A program made the translations under genes and the position numbers. DNA of 64,000 bases, from positions 4,347,823-4,411,822 of the forward strand of contig NZ_CP036265.1 in assembly GCF_007743815.1 (NCBI RefSeq), given 5' to 3'. Below, in pieces: positions 13,265-53,844 of this stretch; the first letter of the stretch is position 1; the number at the start of each line of letters is the position of its first letter. The notes under the pieces were generated by a model. It was not told where the DNA came from and did no database searches. It was given only the letters and a program-made list of their open reading frames with translations. This DNA is from Alienimonas californiensis. GTDB taxonomy: Bacteria > Planctomycetota > Planctomycetia > Planctomycetales > Planctomycetaceae.

Positions 13265-14341
13265 ATGCACGCCCGAATCGTCCTGCTCCCCGGTGACGGC
13301 ATCGGGCCGGAAATCGTCGCCCAGGCGGTCCGCGTCCTGAACGCCGTCGCCGACCGATTCGGACACACCTTCGAACTGACGGAGCAACTGATCGGCGGGG
13401 CCGCGATCGACGCGACCGGCGATCCGCTGCCCGCGGACTCGCTGGCCGCCTGCAAATCGGCCGACGCGATTCTGCTGGGCGCCGTCGGCGGGCCGAAGTG
13501 GGACGACCCGAACGCCAGCGTCCGGCCGGAGCAGGGCTTGCTGAAGATCCGCAAGGAGCTGGGCCTGTTCGCCAACCTGCGGCCGATCAAGCCGCTGGAC
13601 GCTCTCGTCGACGCTTCGCCGCTGAAGACGCACATCGTTCACGGCACGGACATCCTGTTCGTCCGCGAGCTGACCGGCGGCGTCTACTTCGGCGAGAGCG
13701 GCCGCCGGGACGGCGGCAAGACGGCCTATCAGGAGATGGTTTACTCGGAGGCGGAGGTCGAACGCATCGTCCGCCTCGCCGCCGGGCTGGCTCGGGGTCG
13801 CGACGGGCGGCTGACCAGCGTGGATAAGGCGAACGTGCTGGAACCCTCCCGGCTGTGGCGGAGCGTGACGAGCCGCGTGATGAAGGAAGAGTTCCCGGAC
13901 GTGAAGCTGGAGCACGTGCTCGTCGACGCGATGGCGATGCACCTGCTGGTGCGGCCGCGGGACTTCGACGTGGTCGTCACCGGCAACCTGTTCGGCGACA
14001 TCCTCACCGACGAGGCCAGCATGCTGCCCGGCTCGCTGGGCCTGCTGCCGAGCGCCTCGCTGGGCGTGCCGCGGAGCGAGGGCGGCGGGCCGGGGCTGTT
14101 CGAGCCGATCCACGGCAGCGCCCCGGACATCGCCGGCACCGGCAAGGCGAACCCGCTGGCGACGATCCTGTGCAGTGCGATGCTGCTCCGCGACGGCCTC
14201 GGCCTGCCGGGCGAGGCGACCGCCGTGGAGCGGGCCGTGCATGACGCCGTCGCCGCCGGCGTCCGCACCGCCGACATCGCCGCCGGCGGCCCGTCCGTCA
14301 CCACCGTCGAAGCGACCGACGCGGTGCTGGAACGCATCTGA
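13265..14341 (+). CDS. leuB: 3-isopropylmalate dehydrogenase
   Basis: LeuB, 358 residues, oxidises and decarboxylates 3-isopropylmalate to 2-oxoisocaproate with NAD+ in leucine biosynthesis. The N-terminal [11 protein letters not shown], substrate-binding LRPIKPL, the catalytic [11 protein letters not shown] loop, the Lys/Asp region [10 protein letters not shown], the metal-binding [13 protein letters not shown] and the NAD-binding [18 protein letters not shown] are all present. Arrangement and length match bacterial leuB, not isocitrate dehydrogenase. It stands alone; leuA, leuC and leuD are not in the window. It ends just before a REP-like inverted pair. Confidence 0.96.
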
Positions 14342-14345
14342 GGCA

Positions 14346-14481
14346 GGCGAGCGCGGGGGCGTCAGCCCCCCGTGTGCTCTCCCGCCTCCGCCGAAACGAA
14401 AACGACCCGGACGCTGGGAGGCGTTCGGGTCGTTAAGTCGTCGTTTGTCAAAACTCAGGGGGCTGACGCCCCCCGCTCGCC
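14346..14481. repeat. REP-like inverted pair (copy A)
   Basis: Two near-identical arms face each other across about 80 bases. The left arm at 14346-14371 and the reverse complement of the right arm at 14456-14481 share GGCGAGC, then a G-run, then CGTCAG and a C-run. Each arm can fold as the hairpin GGGGGC-GTCA-GCCCCC. Between them is a separate strong hairpin (14401-14434). A similar pair occurs at 51109-51304 with different internal sequence. The element fills the gap between the convergent leuB and BAX-inhibitor-like genes. Confidence 0.7.
14401..14434. terminator. Strong hairpin, probable bidirectional terminator
   Basis: The stem AACGACCCG (14401-14409) pairs with CGGGTCGTT (14426-14434) around a loop in which ACGC and GCGT pair further. 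It lies between convergent genes and inside the REP-like pair. There is a short A-run before it and a T-containing tail after it, so it could work on either strand. Confidence 0.55.
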
Positions 14482-14488
14482 TTTCTGA

Positions 14489-15214
14489 CTAATCGTCCGA
14501 CATGATACTCAGCAGGCGGACGACGTAGAAGAACAGGGTCGCGACGCTGGCGAACAGGGCCAAGCTGGCGGCGACGTGCTGGTTCGTGTGGTAGTGGTGC
14601 AGGACGTTCGAGGTGTCGTAGAGGATGTAGCCGCTCAGCAGCACGATCATCCCCACGCTGAACCACAACCCGAGGCTGAACCCGAACAGCAGCCCGGCGA
14701 CGATCAGCCCGAGCGCGGCGAACATCCCGATCGACAGGGCGCCCCGCAGGAATGAGAAGTCCGCCCCGGAGACGAACACCGCGGCCGTCAGCCCGCCGAA
14801 GATCACCGCGGTGATCAACCCGGCCATCGGAATGATGTTTCCGTCGATCAGCGAGGCGTAGGTCAGCAGCGGCACGAAGATCAGGGCCTCGGCGACGACG
14901 TACAGGGCCAGGCCGAGGTACTGCTTGCCGGGGGAGGAGGCGTCCGAGTGGGCCCACTTCTGGGCGATCCAGGAGGCGCCCATGAACAGGATCAGCGCGA
15001 TCCACCAGTTCCCGCCGATCAGGGCCAGCAGGGCGTTCCTAATCGGTTCGACGGTCAGGAACAGCCCCTCGATGCCGCAGAAGATCAGGATCGCGGTCAG
15101 CAGGTGGGCGTAGGTCCGCCGGATAAAGCCGGCTCGTTCCGAGGCGATGGCGTCGGCCGCGAAGCCGTAGCCGGAGGACAGTTCGTAATCGTCAGCGGCG
15201 CCGCCGAAGCTCAT
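14489..15214 (-). CDS. BAX inhibitor-1/YccA-family membrane protein
   Basis: A 241-residue protein with seven hydrophobic segments and little soluble sequence, matching the BI-1/LFG/YccA family (Ca2+-leak or pH-sensitive channels; bacterial YccA modulates the FtsH protease). Seen directly: RAGFIRRTYAHLLTAI at the first helix, GALSIGMFAALGLIVAGLL, and the family tail YDTSNVLHHYHTNQHVAAS before the last helix, ending MSDD with acidic residues. The start MSFGGAADD at 15214 is used; the upstream in-frame ATG at 15268 adds 18 residues unlike the family. No operon partner. Confidence 0.88.
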   Translation of the reverse strand: MSFGGAADDYELSSGYGFAADAIASERAGFIRRTYAHLLTAILIFCGIEGLFLTVEPIRNALLALIGGNWWIALILFMGASWIAQKWAHSDASSPGKQYLGLALYVVAEALIFVPLLTYASLIDGNIIPMAGLITAVIFGGLTAAVFVSGADFSFLRGALSIGMFAALGLIVAGLLFGFSLGLWFSVGMIVLLSGYILYDTSNVLHHYHTNQHVAASLALFASVATLFFYVVRLLSIMSDD

Positions 15215-15384: not shown

Positions 15385-15918
15385 GTGGCCAAGAACTACT
15401 CCGCCGAAGTCGAAAAGCACACCGCGAACTTCGATCCGTCCAAGCAGTACCGCGTGACCCTCAAGACGAACGCCGGCACGATCCGCCTCGACCTGCGGCC
15501 GGACAAGGCCCCCGGCCACTGCAAGAATATGGTCGGCCTGGCGAAGGCCGGGTTCTACGACGGCTGCATCTTTCACCGGGTCATCGACGGCTTCATGATT
15601 CAGGGCGGCGACCCCACCGGCACCGGCACCGGCGGCCCCGGCTACCAGATCGACGCGGAATTCAACGATCTCCCGCACGAGTCCGGCGTCCTCAGCATGG
15701 CCCGCAGCCAGGACCCCAACAGCGCCGGCAGCCAGTTCTTCATCTGCCTGCCCGGCAACACCAGCTTCCTGAACGGCCAGTACACCGCCTTCGGCAAAGT
15801 CGCCGACGAGGAGAGCCTGGAAGTCGTTAAGAAGATCGGCTCCACCGAGACCAACCCCGGCGACCGCCCGCGGGACGAGCAGACGATCGAAAAAGCGACC
15901 GCCGAAGTGATCGGCTGA
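15385..15918 (+). CDS. Cyclophilin-type peptidyl-prolyl cis-trans isomerase
   Basis: A 177-residue cyclophilin that speeds proline isomerisation in folding proteins. Core motifs are intact: FHRVIDGFMIQGGDPTGTGTGG (active-site Arg and Phe; shown here only as family positions), SGVLSMAR, SAGSQFFICL and FGKV. No signal peptide, so it is probably cytoplasmic. The GTG start at 15385 begins VAKNYSAEV, close to the usual N-terminal extension; the open frame continues to 15247 but without similarity. It is divergent from the BAX-inhibitor-like gene. Confidence 0.9.
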   Translation: MAKNYSAEVEKHTANFDPSKQYRVTLKTNAGTIRLDLRPDKAPGHCKNMVGLAKAGFYDGCIFHRVIDGFMIQGGDPTGTGTGGPGYQIDAEFNDLPHESGVLSMARSQDPNSAGSQFFICLPGNTSFLNGQYTAFGKVADEESLEVVKKIGSTETNPGDRPRDEQTIEKATAEVIG

Positions 15919-15936
15919 TCGGCGGAAGCTTCAAAA

Positions 15937-15994
15937 CCAAGAAATCAAGAACCAAAGGGCCAAGATCGGCAGTCTTTGGTTCTTGAGTTCTTGG
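15937..15994. repeat. AT-rich 21-bp inverted repeat (hairpin)
   Basis: The arm at 15937-15957 and the reverse complement of 15974-15994 agree in 20 of 21 bases. Sequence is built of CAAGAA and ACCAAAG words and is far lower in GC than everything around it. It lies between the convergent cyclophilin and inositol-phosphatase-like genes, so it could terminate both, but its base composition suggests a separate origin. Confidence 0.65.
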
Positions 15995-16005
15995 TCTTGG
16001 AATTT

Positions 16006-16959
16006 CTAAAGGGCCTCGCCGTCGCGATACCGCTCTGGGTGCCACCCGCGGCCGACCTCGCGGAGCGTCGCCAGCGTCGCCGGATCGTTGGCGGTGGCGA
16101 CGACGCGGGGCAGGCGGAGCATGTCGGCCCGGTCGTCCATCCAGAGTTCGCGGTAGTGGACCGGCTCGCCGGTGTCGCACCACACGCTGCCGCCGCCGAA
16201 GGCCGTCGCGATCTGGGCGGCGGCGGGGTAGTCGTAGACGTTCGGTGAGTGAATTAGCGACCCGGCGAAGACGCCGCTGGCCATCAGGTCGTAGATGCTG
16301 CCCGGCGTCTCGTCGGCGACGACGCCCTCCAGCCCCGCGGCGGTGATCGCCGCCGCGGCGGCCGGATCGCGGTGTTGGAAGCCGATGACGTAGATCTTCT
16401 TCGTCGCCCCTGGCGTCGGAACCGGCCGCGGCTCCAGCGAGGCGAGCGCCTGCCCCGCCGGCACAGTCGGATTATCCTCTCCGCAGCGGACCGTCGCCCC
16501 GGTGCCGGCGCCGATGCATTCGACCCAGCGGCCGGTCGCTCCGGCGTCGGGGACGTAGGTAAGGGAGTAATGGACCGCGTCGTCGGTCCGCAGGTTCAGC
16601 ATCACGGCCCAGCCGTCGCCGGCGCGGTCGCGGTACTGCTTCGTCCCGTCGATCGGGTCGAGGCAGAGCGTCAGCGGCGAGTCCTCCGCGAAGGCTTCCA
16701 GCGGGCCGGTCGCCTCCTCCGCCTCGATCCGGCAGGCGCGAAACCGCGGGTCCAGGTCCCGCAGCGCCGTGACGACCAACTCCTGCACCGAGAGGTCGGC
16801 GAGGGTCAGGGCGTCCGTATTACTGGAACCGCTGACCTTCCCGGCGACGGCGATGTCGAACGACCGCATCCGCGACGCCACCCGTCCGGCCCAGCGAAAG
16901 ACCGCGGGCAGATGCTCGTGCAGGGCGGCAGCGACTTCGGCGGGGGGCGGAGCCGTCAT
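16006..16959 (-). CDS. Inositol monophosphatase-family protein (CysQ/SuhB-like)
   Basis: A 317-residue member of the Li+-sensitive, Mg2+-dependent phosphatase family, which includes inositol monophosphatase, fructose-1,6-bisphosphatase and PAP phosphatase (CysQ). The metal-binding signature CLDPIDGTKQY is present near residue 100, EAEEATG upstream supplies a Glu ligand, and the C-terminal metal motif appears as SPNVYDYPAA instead of the usual WDxAA, a deviation. Its ATG overlaps the stop of mch (ATGA), so the two are coupled. The true substrate is unknown, and the coupling to a C1-pathway gene makes a cofactor-related phosphate ester conceivable. Confidence 0.8.
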   Translation of the reverse strand: MTAPPPAEVAAALHEHLPAVFRWAGRVASRMRSFDIAVAGKVSGSSNTDALTLADLSVQELVVTALRDLDPRFRACRIEAEEATGPLEAFAEDSPLTLCLDPIDGTKQYRDRAGDGWAVMLNLRTDDAVHYSLTYVPDAGATGRWVECIGAGTGATVRCGEDNPTVPAGQALASLEPRPVPTPGATKKIYVIGFQHRDPAAAAAITAAGLEGVVADETPGSIYDLMASGVFAGSLIHSPNVYDYPAAAQIATAFGGGSVWCDTGEPVHYRELWMDDRADMLRLPRVVATANDPATLATLREVGRGWHPERYRDGEAL

Positions 16960-21211: not shown

Positions 21212-21243
21212 TAACGCAGAGGCGCCGCGGCGCCTCTGCGTTA
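21212..21243. repeat. 32-bp perfect palindrome (family member 1)
   Basis: TAACGCAGAGGCGCCG is followed immediately by its exact reverse complement, giving a perfect 32-base palindrome between the convergent hmp and acnA genes, where it could serve as a terminator. Two more copies with the same frame but C/G exchanges occur at 43995-44026 and 53813-53844, and half of one is at about 35805-35823. The shared consensus is TAACGCnGAGGCnCCG plus its inverse. Confidence 0.75.
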
Positions 21244-42763: not shown

Positions 42764-45700
42764 ATGTCGCCGCTTCGTTTTTCCGCCGTCCCGGCGGCCG
42801 TCCTCGCGCTGCTGACCGTCGCCGCTGAGGCGACCGCGGCGGACTTCCCCTACGCGGGATTGCCGGCGGAGCAGGCCGCCGCGGTGATGCGGTTGCCGGA
42901 GGGCTTCAAGGTCGTCCCGTTCGCCGCGGAGCCGGACGTGACGCAGCCGATTGCGATGGCGATCGACCACCGCGGCCGGCTGTGGGTCGCGGAGGGGCAC
43001 AGCTACCCGGTGAAGCGGAAGCCGGGCGAAGGCAAGGACCGCATCCTGATCTTCGAAGACACTGACGGCGACGGCCGCCACGACACCCGCAAGGTGTTCG
43101 CCGACGGGCTGAACCTGGTCAGCGGGCTGGAAGTCGGCTTCGGCGGGGTCTTCGTCGGGCAGGCGCCGGAACTGCTGTTCTTCGCCGACGCCGACGGCGA
43201 CGACGTGCCGGACGGCGAACCGGAGGTGTTGCTCGACGGCTGGCACTACGAGGACACGCACGAAACGCTCAACTCCTTCATCTGGGGCCCGGACGGCTGG
43301 CTGTACGGCTGCCACGGGGTGTTCACGCATTCCCGCGTCGGCCCGCCGGGGACGCCGGACGAGCAGCGGGTGCCGATCAACGCCGGCATCTGGCGGTATC
43401 ACCCGACCAGCGGGGCCTTCGAGGTGTTCGCCCACGGCACCAGCAATCCGTGGGGCGTGGACTTCGACGAGCACGGCCAGAGCTTCCTGACCTGCTGCGT
43501 GATCCCGCACCTGTTCCACGTGATTCCCGGCGCCCGCTACTTCCGGCAGGCCGGGCGGCATTTCGATCCTCACGTCTACGAAGACATCCCCACGATCGCC
43601 AAGCACCGGCACTTCGTCGGGCACCAGTGGACCGAGGCGGATAAGAATGCCAGCCTCGACACCGGCGGCGGCCACGCCCACGCCGGGGCGATGATCTACC
43701 AGGGCGACGCCTGGCCGCAGCAGTACGCCGGCGCCCTGCTGATGAACAACATCCATGGCGCCCGGTTGAACGCGGACTCTCTCACGCCCTCCGGCAGCGG
43801 GTTCGTCGGCGATCGGCTGCCGGACTTCTGTCTGACGGACGACCTCGCCAGCCAGATGCTCTACCTGCGCAGCGGGCCGGACGGGAACGTCCTCGTGATC
43901 GACTGGTACGACACGTCTCAGTGCCACCATACGAACATCGAAGGGCATCAGCGTTCCAACGGCCGGATCTGGAAGATCGTCTATGACACTCCCCTAACGC
44001 CGAGGCCCCGCGGGGCCTCGGCGTTAGATAGAGCTTCGACCGAAGAGCTCGTCGTGCTGCTGACGCACCCGAACGTCTGGCACCGCCGGCACGCCCAGCG
44101 GGCGTTGCAGGAGCGGAACGATCCGGCGACGGGCGCGCTGCTCGCCCCGCTGCTCGGGCACGCCAACCCGCTGACCCGACTGCGGGGCCTCTGGGCCGCC
44201 GCGGCGACCGCCACGCTGACGGGCGAACACCTCGACGCCGCGCTGACCGACGCTGATCCCAATGTGCGGCTGTGGGGCGTGCGGCTGGTCGCCCAGTCGC
44301 GGCCGGCCCTGCCAATGAGCGCCGGCGTGCCGCGGGCGATCGGCGACCTGCCCCCGCTGCCGGCCTTCGGCGATCGGCTGGAGGCGCTCGTTCAGATGGC
44401 CCAAACCGACCCCGCCGCCCCAGTGCGGTTGGAACTGGCGTCGCTCGCCCAGCGGCTCCCGCTGGAGGAACGCGGCGATCTGCTGGCGGCGCTGCTGGCC
44501 CGGGGGGAGGACGCCGGGGATCACAACCTGCCGCTGATGGCCTGGTATGCCTTCGAACCGCTGGTGCCGGCGAACCCGGAGGCGGCGCTGAAGGTCGCTC
44601 TCGCCGGCGAGTTGCCGACGGTCCGCCGGCTGACGCTCCGCCGAGTCGGGGAACTGGGGACGCCGGCGTCGCGGGAGGCACTGGTCACGGCGGCCGCGAA
44701 CGCCGCCGCCGCGGGGCAGGACGACCGGGCGCTAGAGGCCCTCGCCGGGCTCTCCGGGGCGATCGCCGGCCGCAAGGTCGAGTGCCCCGCCGGTTGGGCA
44801 GACGCCGTCGCGGCCCTGCGGACGAGCAGAAACGAAACGGTGCGGGATCAGGCAGTCGGCTTCGACTATCGCTTCGGCAACCCGGCCGCGGGTGAGGAGC
44901 GCCGGGCGACGGTGACGGACGCCGCCGCCTCGGTCGACCGCCGCCGGGCGGCCCTGGCCGATCTGCTGGACGTGCCGTCGGACGATCTGGCGATCTTCCT
45001 CCGCCGGCTGATCTCCGCCGAGCCGGCCGCCCCGCTGACCCCGGATCTGATCCGCGGACTGGGCCGCGCCGACAGCCCGGAAAACCCGCCGTTCTTGCGG
45101 CAGTACCTTCCGCGGTTCGACCCCGCCGGCCGCCGGGCGGCACTGTCCGTGCTCGTTTCCCGCCCGGCCGGCGCCGAGGCCCTGCTGAACGCGATGGCCG
45201 AGGGCGAAGTCCCGACCGCCGACCTCACCGCCGACCTCGCCCGGCAGTTGCGGAACCTTGGGGACGACGCCCTCACCGCCCGCCTCGCCGAGGTGTGGGG
45301 CACCGTCGCGGAGACGGACGAAGAGCGGGCGAAACTGATCGTGCAGTACAAACGGAAGCTCAGCGCCGGCGACAACAGCAGCGACGTGACGCCCGACCGC
45401 GTCGCCGGCAAGGCCCTGTTCACGAAGACCTGCGGGCAGTGCCACGAACTGTTCGGCGAGGGCGGCAAGGTCGGCCCCGGCCTGACCGGTTCAAACCGGC
45501 GGGATCTCGATTACCTCCTGTCCAACATCGTCGCCCCCTCGTCGGTGATGGCGAAGGACTACCGACCGACCGTCCTGCTGACCGACGGCGGGCAGGTGCA
45601 CACCGGCCTGATCCAGGCGGAGACGGACGCGGCGATCACCCTCGCCACCGCGGACGGCGAGGTCGTGGTGCCGACCGCCAGCGTGCTCGAACGGATGGAG

Positions 45701-51108: not shown

Positions 51109-51304
51109 GGCGAGCGGCGGGGCGTCAGCCCCCCCGTGCGGTGACGCCGTGCGGCGAGCCGGGGGGAAGCACAAATCCTGTCACGATCACCGCTTCCGTC
51201 AACCGTGCCGCGACGGGGTTGCGGGTGTTGTGTCTATGTGTACACTAGTCGCGGCCCGCACGTCAACGCCAGTTGTACGGGGGGCCGACGCCCCGCCGCT
51301 CGCC
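51109..51304. repeat. REP-like inverted pair (copy B)
   Basis: The left arm at 51109-51137 and the inverted right arm at 51277-51304 agree in 27 of 28 bases in their shared part: GGCGAGC, a G-rich stem, CGTCAG/CGTCGG and a C-run. The head-out arrangement equals copy A at 14346-14481, but the 140-base interior differs. A further single copy lies at 51412-51435. The element separates nadD and priA, which diverge here. Confidence 0.7.
51219..51246 (+). promoter_or_regulatory. Possible priA promoter inside the REP-like pair
   Basis: TTGCGG (51219-51224) and TACACT (51241-51246) are 16 bases apart, upstream of the priA frame. The -10 overlaps the palindrome GTGTACAC at 51238-51245. Weak match; position is the main argument. 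Confidence 0.3.
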
Positions 51305-51315
51305 GAGGTTCCCGC

Positions 51316-53796
51316 ATGGTCGCCCGCACCGCCACCCTTTCGGCCGGCTCGCTTTCGGCCCGCGCCGCGGGCGCCAAGATGGAGCGCATGGAGCCGTCCC
51401 CGCCGCACGCTCCGGGGGCTGACGCCCCCGGCTCGTTTTCCGCGACCAAGTCTGCGAAGGAGCAGGGGGCGCTGTTCGACCCGCCGGAGCCGACCGCCGA
51501 GGAGATCGCCGCCGGCGCCGCGATGGCGTGGGAGAGCGCCGCGGCGGAGGACCGCGTCGTTGCCGACGTGGTCCTGAACAAGCCGCTGATGGACGCTTAC
51601 ACGTATCTTGTGCCGGAGAATCTGCGAGATGAGGTGGTCCCCGGCCGCCGGGTGCGGGTCCCGTTCGGCCGCGGCCCGCGGGGCGGACGGAGCGAATCCG
51701 GCTTCGTGGTCGCCGTCCGGCCGGTGGAGGAGTACGCCCGGGAGCGCGGCGCCAAGCCGGAGCGGCTCAAGACGATCGACCGCACGCTGGACGAAGCTCC
51801 GCTGGTCGACGCCAAGATGCTGGCGCTCTCCCGCTGGATCGCGGAGTACTACCTCTGCGGCTGGGGGCAGGTGCTTTCGTCGATCGTCCCGGCCGGGGTG
51901 AAGCGGAACGCCGGCACGCGGGAGCTCGTCTACTACAAACCCACCGCGACCGGCCGGGCGGCGCTGGACGCCGGCAGCCTCACCAAAAAGCAGCGGGCCG
52001 TGATGGCGGCGCTGATCGACGCCGGCGAGCCGGTCCGGGCGGACTACCTCGCCGGCAAAGCCGATTGCGGCGTGGGCGTGGTGACTGGCCTGAAGCACAA
52101 GGGCTTTGCGGAACAGGTGGTTCAGCGAACCGACGTGACGGATTTCGGGGACGTCGAAATCGAACCCTGGACGGAACTAACCGCCACGGAAGAACAGCAG
52201 GCCGCCCTCGACGCGATCCTGACGGCCCTGCGGGAACGCGAGTACGCGACCTTCCTGCTGCACGGCGTGACCGGCAGCGGCAAGACGGAGGTCTACATCC
52301 GGGCGATCAAGGAGGTGGTCGAGTACGGCCGGCAGGCGATCGTGCTGGTGCCGGAGATCGCCCTCACCCCGCAAACGATCCGCCGATTTCGGCAGCGGTT
52401 TGAACGGGTCGCGGTGCTGCACAGCCACCTCTCCGACGCCGAACGCAGCAAGCACTGGCGCGACATCGCCGCCGGGCGGGTGGAGGTGGTGGTGGGGGCC
52501 CGCAGCGCGATCTTCGCCCCGACGACGCACCTGGGGCTGGTCATCATCGACGAGGAGCACGAGTCGACCTTCAAACAGGACAGCGTGCCCCGCTACCACG
52601 CCCGAGAAGTGGCGGAGAAGCGCTGCCGCGAGGCCGGCGTGCCGCTGGTGCTGGGCTCCGCGACCCCGACGCTGGAAAGCTGGCACGCGGCTCAGGAGGG
52701 GCGGTACCGGTTGCTGAGTCTGCTCCGCCGGGTCGGCAAGCTGCCCTTGCCGCCGGTGGTGACCGTGGACGTGCGAAACGACCCGCAGGTTCGCAAGGGC
52801 CGGGCGATCGGTCGGCAGCTGACGAACGCCGTGAAGGCGGCGCTGGAGGACGGCGGGCAGGTGATTCTGTTCCTGAACCTCCGTGGGTTCAGCCCGGCGG
52901 TCTGGTGCCGGGCCTGCGGGGCGAGCCTGAAATGCCCGGACTGCGACGTCTCCCTCACTTGGCACCGCGACAAGGGGCGGGCGGTCTGCCACTCCTGCGA
53001 TCACGAGCAGACCGTCCCCCGGGCCTGCCCAGGTTGCGGCGCCCATGAACTGAAGTACGTCGGCGTCGGTACCCAGAAGCTGGAAGAAGAGGTCCGGCAG
53101 GTCTTCCCGGAGGCGGAGATCGCCCGCATGGACAGCGACTCCATGCGGAAACCCGGCAGTCACGACAAAGTGCTGACCCGCTTCCGCGCGGGCGAAATTG
53201 ACATCCTGCTGGGCACGCAGATGATCGCCAAGGGGCTCGACTTTCCGAACGTCACGCTCGTCGGGGTCGTCGATGCTGATACCCAACTCCATCAACCCGA
53301 CCCCCGGGCCGGCGAGCGGACTTTTCAACTGATCGCCCAGGTCGCCGGCCGCACCGGCCGCAGTTCCCGGGGCGGGCGGGTCTACGTGCAAAGCAGCAAC
53401 CCGGCCGAGCCGGCGATCCGCCGGGCGGCGGGGCACGACTACCTCGGCTTCGTGGCGGACGAACTCCGCGACCGCTGGGACATGAGCTACCCGCCCTACC
53501 GGCGGCTCTGCCGGGTGATCCTCCGTGGGCCGGACGAGGCGGCGGTGAAGCGACGGGCGAACGAGATGGCGAACGCCCTCGCCGCCGCGGCGAAGGCACA
53601 GAACCTCCCCGTGCAGATCCTCGGCCCGGCCCCCTGTGCCGTGGCCCGGTTGCAGAAGAACTGGCGCTTCCACTTCCAACTCAGCGGCGAGAACCCGAAC
53701 GACGTCCGCACTCTCTGGCGAACCGTCGAGCCGGAATTTCCCACCGCCGGCGACGTCGATTACGTCGTCGACATGGACCCGCTCAACATGCGGTGA
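51316..53796 (+). CDS. priA: Primosomal protein N' (replication restart helicase)
   Basis: PriA reloads the replisome at stalled forks as a 3'-to-5' helicase. From ATG 51316 it is 826 residues; the first real homology (VADVVLNKPLMDAYTYLVPENL, quoted as LMDAYTYLVPENL) begins about 75 residues in, so ATG 51379, 51388 or 51523 may be the true start. Seen: Walker A GVTGSGKTEVYI near 317, DEEHESTFKQD, the zinc module CRACGASLKCPDC with CHSCDH and CPGCGAH near residue 530, and the helicase motif TQMIAKGLDFPNV. The long N-terminal extension contains a REP-like unit (51412-51435). Confidence 0.93.
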   Translation: MVARTATLSAGSLSARAAGAKMERMEPSPPHAPGADAPGSFSATKSAKEQGALFDPPEPTAEEIAAGAAMAWESAAAEDRVVADVVLNKPLMDAYTYLVPENLRDEVVPGRRVRVPFGRGPRGGRSESGFVVAVRPVEEYARERGAKPERLKTIDRTLDEAPLVDAKMLALSRWIAEYYLCGWGQVLSSIVPAGVKRNAGTRELVYYKPTATGRAALDAGSLTKKQRAVMAALIDAGEPVRADYLAGKADCGVGVVTGLKHKGFAEQVVQRTDVTDFGDVEIEPWTELTATEEQQAALDAILTALREREYATFLLHGVTGSGKTEVYIRAIKEVVEYGRQAIVLVPEIALTPQTIRRFRQRFERVAVLHSHLSDAERSKHWRDIAAGRVEVVVGARSAIFAPTTHLGLVIIDEEHESTFKQDSVPRYHAREVAEKRCREAGVPLVLGSATPTLESWHAAQEGRYRLLSLLRRVGKLPLPPVVTVDVRNDPQVRKGRAIGRQLTNAVKAALEDGGQVILFLNLRGFSPAVWCRACGASLKCPDCDVSLTWHRDKGRAVCHSCDHEQTVPRACPGCGAHELKYVGVGTQKLEEEVRQVFPEAEIARMDSDSMRKPGSHDKVLTRFRAGEIDILLGTQMIAKGLDFPNVTLVGVVDADTQLHQPDPRAGERTFQLIAQVAGRTGRSSRGGRVYVQSSNPAEPAIRRAAGHDYLGFVADELRDRWDMSYPPYRRLCRVILRGPDEAAVKRRANEMANALAAAAKAQNLPVQILGPAPCAVARLQKNWRFHFQLSGENPNDVRTLWRTVEPEFPTAGDVDYVVDMDPLNMR
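51412..51435 (+). repeat. REP-like single unit within the priA N-terminal frame
   Basis: The reverse complement carries CGAGCC, then GGGGGC-GTCA-GCCCCC, matching an arm of the REP-like pairs at 14346 and 51109. In the priA frame it reads PGADAPGS. It is either translated or part of a leader if a later priA start is used. Confidence 0.6.
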
Positions 53797-53812: not shown

Positions 53813-53844
53813 TAACGCCGAGGCCCCGCGGGGCCTCGGCGTTA
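53813..53844. repeat. 32-bp perfect palindrome (family member 3)
   Basis: Identical to the copy at 43995-44026, here between priA and the convergent SIS-domain gene, where it would also work as a terminator for both. Confidence 0.75.

Follow-up and report, generated by a model that had tools for sequence, protein, structure and literature searches.

A REPIN-like repeat family and its putative HuH-Y1 transposase in Alienimonas californiensis

Repeat pairs beside leuB and priA

The stretch of DNA analysed here, termed the window, comprises 64,000 nucleotides of Alienimonas californiensis (contig NZ_CP036265.1, positions 4,347,823 to 4,411,822), whose genome is a 5.48-Mb single contig. It carries two inverted pairs of short repeat units, here called arms, and one lone arm:

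13265-14341, plus strand: leuB (3-isopropylmalate dehydrogenase), left neighbour, convergent
14346-14374, plus strand: REP arm, head first, GGCGAGCGCGGGGGCGTCAGCCCCCCGTG; GGCGAGC head and hairpin GGGGGC-GTCA-GCCCCC; the other strand of its tail reads CACGG
14375-14453: interior of the pair, 79 nt, enclosing a terminator-like hairpin; leuB and BI-1 converge on it
14454-14481, minus strand: inverted partner arm, head first on that strand, CTCAGGGGGCTGACGCCCCCCGCTCGCC; CTCAG tail
14489-15214, minus strand: Bax1-I / BI-1 family membrane protein gene, right neighbour, convergent
51109-51137, plus strand: REP arm, second pair
51138-51275: interior of the second pair, 138 nt, between divergent nadD and priA
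51276-51304, minus strand: REP arm, second pair, one core mismatch, GGGCCGACGCCC
51410-51435, minus strand: lone arm, its head truncated, within the predicted 5' end of priA

The arms of the first pair occupy the intergenic space between leuB and the BI-1 family gene. A preliminary description of the window had reported both head-out pairs as sharing their arms, and had held that the arms, not the interior, are the conserved unit. The pairs are confirmed, with one point corrected: their interiors differ because both pairs are long-gap (79 and 138 nt), and in the most frequent doublet of the family the interior is 19-20 nt and has a loose consensus. Read from the head, the inner tails of the leuB pair are CGTG (left arm) and TGAG (right arm). 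This pair is a long-gap doublet of mixed type, with one CACGG and one CTCAG arm around the leuB/BI-1 terminator; the earlier view of it as a REP doublet holds as to family membership, but not as to form, which is atypical.

Between the two arms lies a strong hairpin (14402-14433; z -6.15, DNA folding), whose stem is retained in the sister species of the same genus despite sequence changes; both arm types are preserved there as well. The right arm itself has a terminator-like reading on the minus strand, consisting of its hairpin and the following TGAGTTTTGA. An Rfam search of 14200-14600 gave two matches only, both far below gathering scores, and a promoter scan of the same interval found none. 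Stretches resembling the stem match elsewhere, for example at positions 475681, 4046525 and 4973773 of the window genome and at C26, C190 and C58 of the sister genome; this sequence is perhaps a recurrent terminator. The lone arm at 51410-51435 is translated within a low-complexity N-terminal stretch of the predicted PriA.

The repeat family and a transposase gene framed by its arms

Inside the window alone the repeat core is not over-represented (7 matches with two mismatches allowed where 4.35 would be expected, the 7 being reached by 9 of 100 shuffles). Throughout the window genome there are 67 exact copies of the 14-mer core against one for its reversed control, and 106 of core plus head, again against one; these counts rule out a chance repeat. 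The preliminary description had called for such a search, naming a mere handful of copies together with the lack of a RAYT-like gene as the outcome that would speak against it; 152 arms in total were found in the stretches read. The scan demanded a head within one mismatch, so that conservation of the head is partly a product of the scan rule.

Where arms lie less than 200 nt apart in these stretches, 45 of 48 pairs are head-out, three point the same way and none is head-in. Spacing in the 45 head-out pairs is preferentially 19-20 nt (20 nt in 17 pairs and 19 nt in 5, together 22/45), giving a commonest doublet of ∼76 bp: arm, 19-20 nt interior, inverted arm. Over 21 spacers of 20 nt there is a loose inverted consensus, with T1 in all 21, T4 and C5 in 20 and 19, and CGA at positions 15-17 in 19, 19 and 18. 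One canonical doublet that was folded forms a single long hairpin (z -14.1). In 56 distinct arms, with no filter for pairing applied, stem pairs 2, 4 and 5 (numbered from the loop) are paired in 56, 52 and 44, above all 2000 reshuffles; pairs 1, 3 and 6 have no clear excess. The base next to the outer arm end (-1) is A in 48/84 flanks, and no target motif of a strength that could account for the shared places described below was seen. By a simple and crude codon model, trained on 35 window open reading frames and calling the window 88% coding, the 128 arms with no more than one mismatch divide into 97 that lie between genes, 11 that touch the end of a gene and 20 within predicted coding sequence.

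The genome has six Y1_Tnp matches, four of them over the family cut-off, and a seventh homologue found by protein search. One encodes a HuH-Y1 transposase of 199 aa and is framed, in doublet orientation, by two arms:

G000:C1:5144924-5145611: arm-framed transposase cassette of the window genome, 688 bp, identical 28-nt arms at both ends

The other six Y1-like genes (L031, L033-L036 and one at 5188984) have no arm pair, L036 having one match with three mismatches; from its framing, the cassette gene is probably the acting transposase. The preliminary description had suggested looking for such a gene flanked by arms, and it is present, as are such genes in relatives, with arms of their own.

The protein scores 26.2 bits with PF01797 (Y1_Tnp; cut-off 23), a profile matched by 15/15 proteins, and 36.5 bits with NCBIfam REP_Tyr_transpos, below the cut-off of 80. 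Residues H106, H108, Y165 and Q169 are invariant in an alignment of 15 proteins (the window genome's and 14 relatives); the Y motif is Y---Q in all 15, and Y----Q in the homologue L055. Most of the 15 have WT or WA, the window genome's own transposase having WS. The structure model is that of the relative L180 (3 sequences, mean pLDDT 74). Its fold matches IS200/IS605 TnpA with Z up to 14.2 and E. coli TnpA_REP (4er8) with Z 10.8, the latter only modestly above unrelated folds, which reach Z 9.0. A PDB profile search matched IS200-type 2f4f and 2ec2; SAKe designs ranked higher but were set aside, their score being a sum of weak stretches. By its motifs, the Y1_Tnp profile and the predicted fold of its relative, the window genome's transposase can be assigned to the HuH-Y1 (TnpA_Y1) superfamily.

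Transposases and arms across lineages and known systems

At a threshold of E 1e-5, which admits distant homologues, the transposase has homologues in 69 of 150 genomes from the family. Of 33 homologue loci scanned, own genome included, nine with cut flanks were left out; 22 of the remaining 24 have arms within ∼400 nt on one side or both (both in 18), against no reversed-motif matches at the same loci and 0.003 per locus in shuffles. L180 duplicates L050, leaving 23 distinct loci, 21 with arms and 18 with arms on both sides. L043 has a duplicate too, L181, and the flanks of both are cut. The two full-flank homologues without arms by the main rule are L055, with imperfect arms by a looser rule, and L062, with none. 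L182, from a Chloroflexi-labelled MAG with one flank cut, has no arms.

Each tested lineage has a matched transposase and arm type. For three other lineages, arms of the lineage's own type were counted in 12 genomes and were numerous chiefly in the genome that has its transposase, named first:

Lineage 1: G093 171, G068 7, ten others 0
Lineage 2: G102 85, window genome 12, sister species 10, nine others at most 1
Lineage 3: G088 18, eleven others at most 1

Arm distance tracks protein distance (51 arms at 27 loci; r 0.42, p 0.0001). In that set, arms with more than two core mismatches had to pair fully in the inner stem, so covariation counts on the 51 arms are flattered; the 56-arm recount given above drops this filter.

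In each congener, arms of the type that frames its resident transposase outnumber every other type. The window genome has 111 CACGG arms among 152, the type that frames its own transposase, and 22 of CTCAG. The transposase of the sister species is 61% identical, with four CTCAG-tailed arms around it, and the stretches read there have 57 CTCAG and 28 CACGG arms among 104 (tails within one mismatch of CACGG are counted as that type, CTCGG tails among them). The matching is not exclusive: no CTCAG-framed transposase was found in the window genome for its 22 CTCAG arms, and the sister species has its 28 CACGG-like ones. Six further homologues in the sister species comprise five without an arm within 600 nt and one with a single 3-mismatch match.

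The two cassettes occupy different places. At the place in the sister species that matches the window genome's cassette there are 30 nt against 718, with flanks 85% and 75% identical; conversely, at the place in the window genome that matches the sister's transposase there are 85 nt against 779. Given these reciprocal empty sites, the position of the cassette is not fixed within the genus; movement, exchange or transfer, or loss on each side could have produced them.

The system appears to work like REPIN/RAYT, by analogy with Pseudomonas, Stenotrophomonas and E. coli (PMC3116915, PMC2817692, PMC3686654, PMC8266576). As described there, and as here, a palindromic unit forms inverted doublets, mostly intergenic, and a transposase has its own repeat type and coevolves with it; one Pseudomonas REPIN type has 71 bp between its 16-mers. 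Here, too, a repeated, mostly intergenic palindrome forms inverted doublets with preferred spacing. In contrast, the head here is GGCGAGC with no GT(A/G)G foot, and the Y motif is Y---Q with no NP. Furthermore, the relevant passages of those papers have orthologous rayt genes keeping their place, with no evidence of tnpA_REP mobility, whereas here the two congeners carry the cassette at separate positions.

A GTAG foot is absent from the arms read in the window genome and at 27 homologue loci, GGCGAGC standing at that end; this applies to arms scanned by their head, and GTAG repeats may exist elsewhere in these genomes. Lacking this foot, and with Y---Q in place of the Y..NP of class-2 RAYTs in the 15 aligned proteins, the system falls outside the GTAG REP / class-2 RAYT family as judged from sequence motifs. 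The preliminary description's REP doublet and RAYT reading is thus borne out in the REPIN-like layout and the framed transposase, but not as a classical GTAG REP with a class-2 RAYT.

The nearest known group seems to be the 'class 3' TnpA_Y1, although the match is not firm. Class 3 proteins, known chiefly from Planctomycetes, are flanked by atypical structures (PMC6006769). As printed there, the class shares with the proteins here the HuH-Y1 type, a similar length, a W with T or A after it, a Q within the Y motif, occurrence in Planctomycetes and non-GTAG flanking structures that can be high-copy; WT or WA and multicopy atypical flanks are found here too, and two relatives, L180 and L181, come from records of Planctomycetota, their proteins being identical in every residue to those of two loci of the family. 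Set against the printed motifs only, class 3 has Y----Q where the 15 proteins have Y---Q (Y----Q recurring in L055), and a 5' foot CnGA of which the arms here have no conserved counterpart; by one reading only, the arms of the window genome's transposase have CGGA before the inner stem, and it is not conserved among homologue arms.

Two other systems resemble this one in part. IS200/IS605 elements (IS608, ISDra2) share the fold, the HuH and Y---Q motifs and hairpin ends, whereas in the window genome many short doublets accompany the one arm-framed cassette found. GTAG- and CGTC-tagged palindromic repeats (PMC3733652) are likewise tagged hairpins, described there as mostly head-to-head dimers; unlike them, the arms here have a GGCGAGC head, with CGTC at stem and loop, and, unlike the CGTC class as it is presented there, frame a transposase gene.

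Repeat places shared with the sister species, and their interpretation

We compared repeat clusters between the two species in stretches of the sister genome (759,494 unique bases of 5.3 Mb) chosen around repeats and transposase-like genes. Of 99 clusters in the window genome 53 could be mapped into these stretches, and 36 of the 53 coincide with a cluster there, whereas 200 shifted controls gave 1.1 on average and never more than 5; given how the stretches were chosen, 36/53 is not an unbiased sharing rate, and the shifted control tests coincidence only. In 12 cases of repeats present only in the window genome, the flanks were too diverged for base-exact empty sites.

One account of this coincidence, to which we give close to an even chance, is that two different transposases inserted independently into the same hot spots. 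The content of the shared places fits it. Over 44 matched arm pairs arm likeness is 0.872 against 0.865 when permuted, with 125 of 2000 permutations as high (48 of 2000 for the first 18 nt of the arm), and the outer flanks of these pairs are clearly orthologous (z 10 and 21). This set covers 32 of 35 shared clusters with wider margins, three clusters with several same-way arms being left out; an earlier version with 45 arm pairs over the 35 selected shared clusters gave p 0.035. Ten short doublets are complete in both species; their arms (z -0.4) and spacers (z 0.7) show no more likeness than permuted pairs. Inner-side orthology over the matched pairs (z 5.1) is carried by single arms (z 4.5) and by long pairs (z 2.5); as short doublets lack the signal, it is not evidence against hot spots. 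In 11 aligned shared sites the two insertion points lie 0 to about 40 nt apart, and the A at -1 suggests some target preference. Against hot spots stand the degree of coincidence itself, which extends to a site in the same frame of one gene, the want of a target motif strong enough to account for it and the arm type being the same in both species at the leuB pair, 3896783 and 1311298.

The same-frame site is a short doublet within a ferredoxin-like gene, named from its visible cysteine motif alone (G000:C1:2925333-2925408, L076; G001 L145:2479-2581); arm type and length differ between the species.

Tentatively, and with somewhat lower probability, the REPIN places may instead be inherited, each short doublet having been replaced whole by the type of the lineage's current transposase. 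Existing sites would then be refilled, by excision and re-insertion at a restored target, and not only new ones added; the transposase cassette itself would relocate or be exchanged; and long-gap pairs, such as both window pairs, would escape replacement. Among 13 doublets complete in both species, arm type changed in 9 of 10 short and 0 of 3 long-gap ones (p 0.014), an exploratory comparison, its 32-nt cut having been chosen after inspection of the table and change being taken as gain or loss of CTCAG; the three long-gap doublets include both window pairs. The exact tails at matched pairs go from CACGG to CTCAG in 16, are unchanged in 6 and 5 and do the reverse in none, the rest being other (Fisher p 0.25). 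Replacement in place and hot-spot insertion both fit the data, and we found no report of REP doublets replaced in place in the open-access literature searched, as far as its accessible text goes.

Whichever applies, the arms are very probably non-GTAG REP units of a REPIN-type system with a cognate HuH-Y1 transposase. The transposase of the 688-bp cassette would most likely bind the arm hairpin in single-stranded DNA and cut next to it; the cut would lead to the copying (in trans) or moving of short doublets of ∼76 bp, mostly into intergenic DNA. Both long-gap pairs of the window are probably immobile, the leuB pair presumably an old member, common to the sister species, that has stopped moving.

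It is unlikely that the arms are instead mainly host elements, terminators or stabilisers of mRNA 3' ends kept by selection, to which the association with a transposase is secondary. Such a role would suit the intergenic position of most arms, the share of clusters flanked by convergent genes (24 of 77, compared with 10 of 50 gene pairs in the window), the preserved terminator-like hairpin within the leuB pair, the one terminator-like window arm and the places coinciding between species. It sits poorly with the matched transposase and arm type of each lineage, the identical arms framing a transposase gene and the head-out layout at 19-20 nt; moreover, a T-rich stretch follows the stem in only 10/145 arms on the tail side and in none on the head side. 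DNA uptake sequences (DUS) of natural transformation can be arranged as inverted pairs, and the arms are short repeats paired around a terminator-like hairpin, but with only 152 in the stretches read, each a hairpin with some stem covariation and tied to a transposase, we regard a DUS-like function as extremely improbable.

For a REPIN-type system with its own transposase, the cassette is compact (688 bp, identical ends) and suited to biochemistry; the paper on the class 3 group notes atypical structures only. How REP populations persist, and whether REP transposases are immobile domesticated genes, are treated as open in the literature, to the extent of the texts cited above. Here two congeners differ in their transposase and in its position, and dozens of their repeat places coincide but differ in content; this forms a natural experiment, in which a third congener would make replacement and hot-spot insertion testable against each other.

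Two further repeats were seen in the window. A perfect 32-nt palindrome (TAACGCCGAGGCCCCGCGGGGCCTCGGCGTTA and variants) lies at 21212-21243, 43995-44026 and 53813-53844; with up to three mismatches and both strands counted it has 68 places in the window genome and 71 in the sister genome (reversed control 0), and it has no relation to the REP arms. An A+T-rich inverted repeat of 33 nt (15925-16006; 16 nt between its arms, 85% complementary) sits between genes ending at 15918 and 16006.
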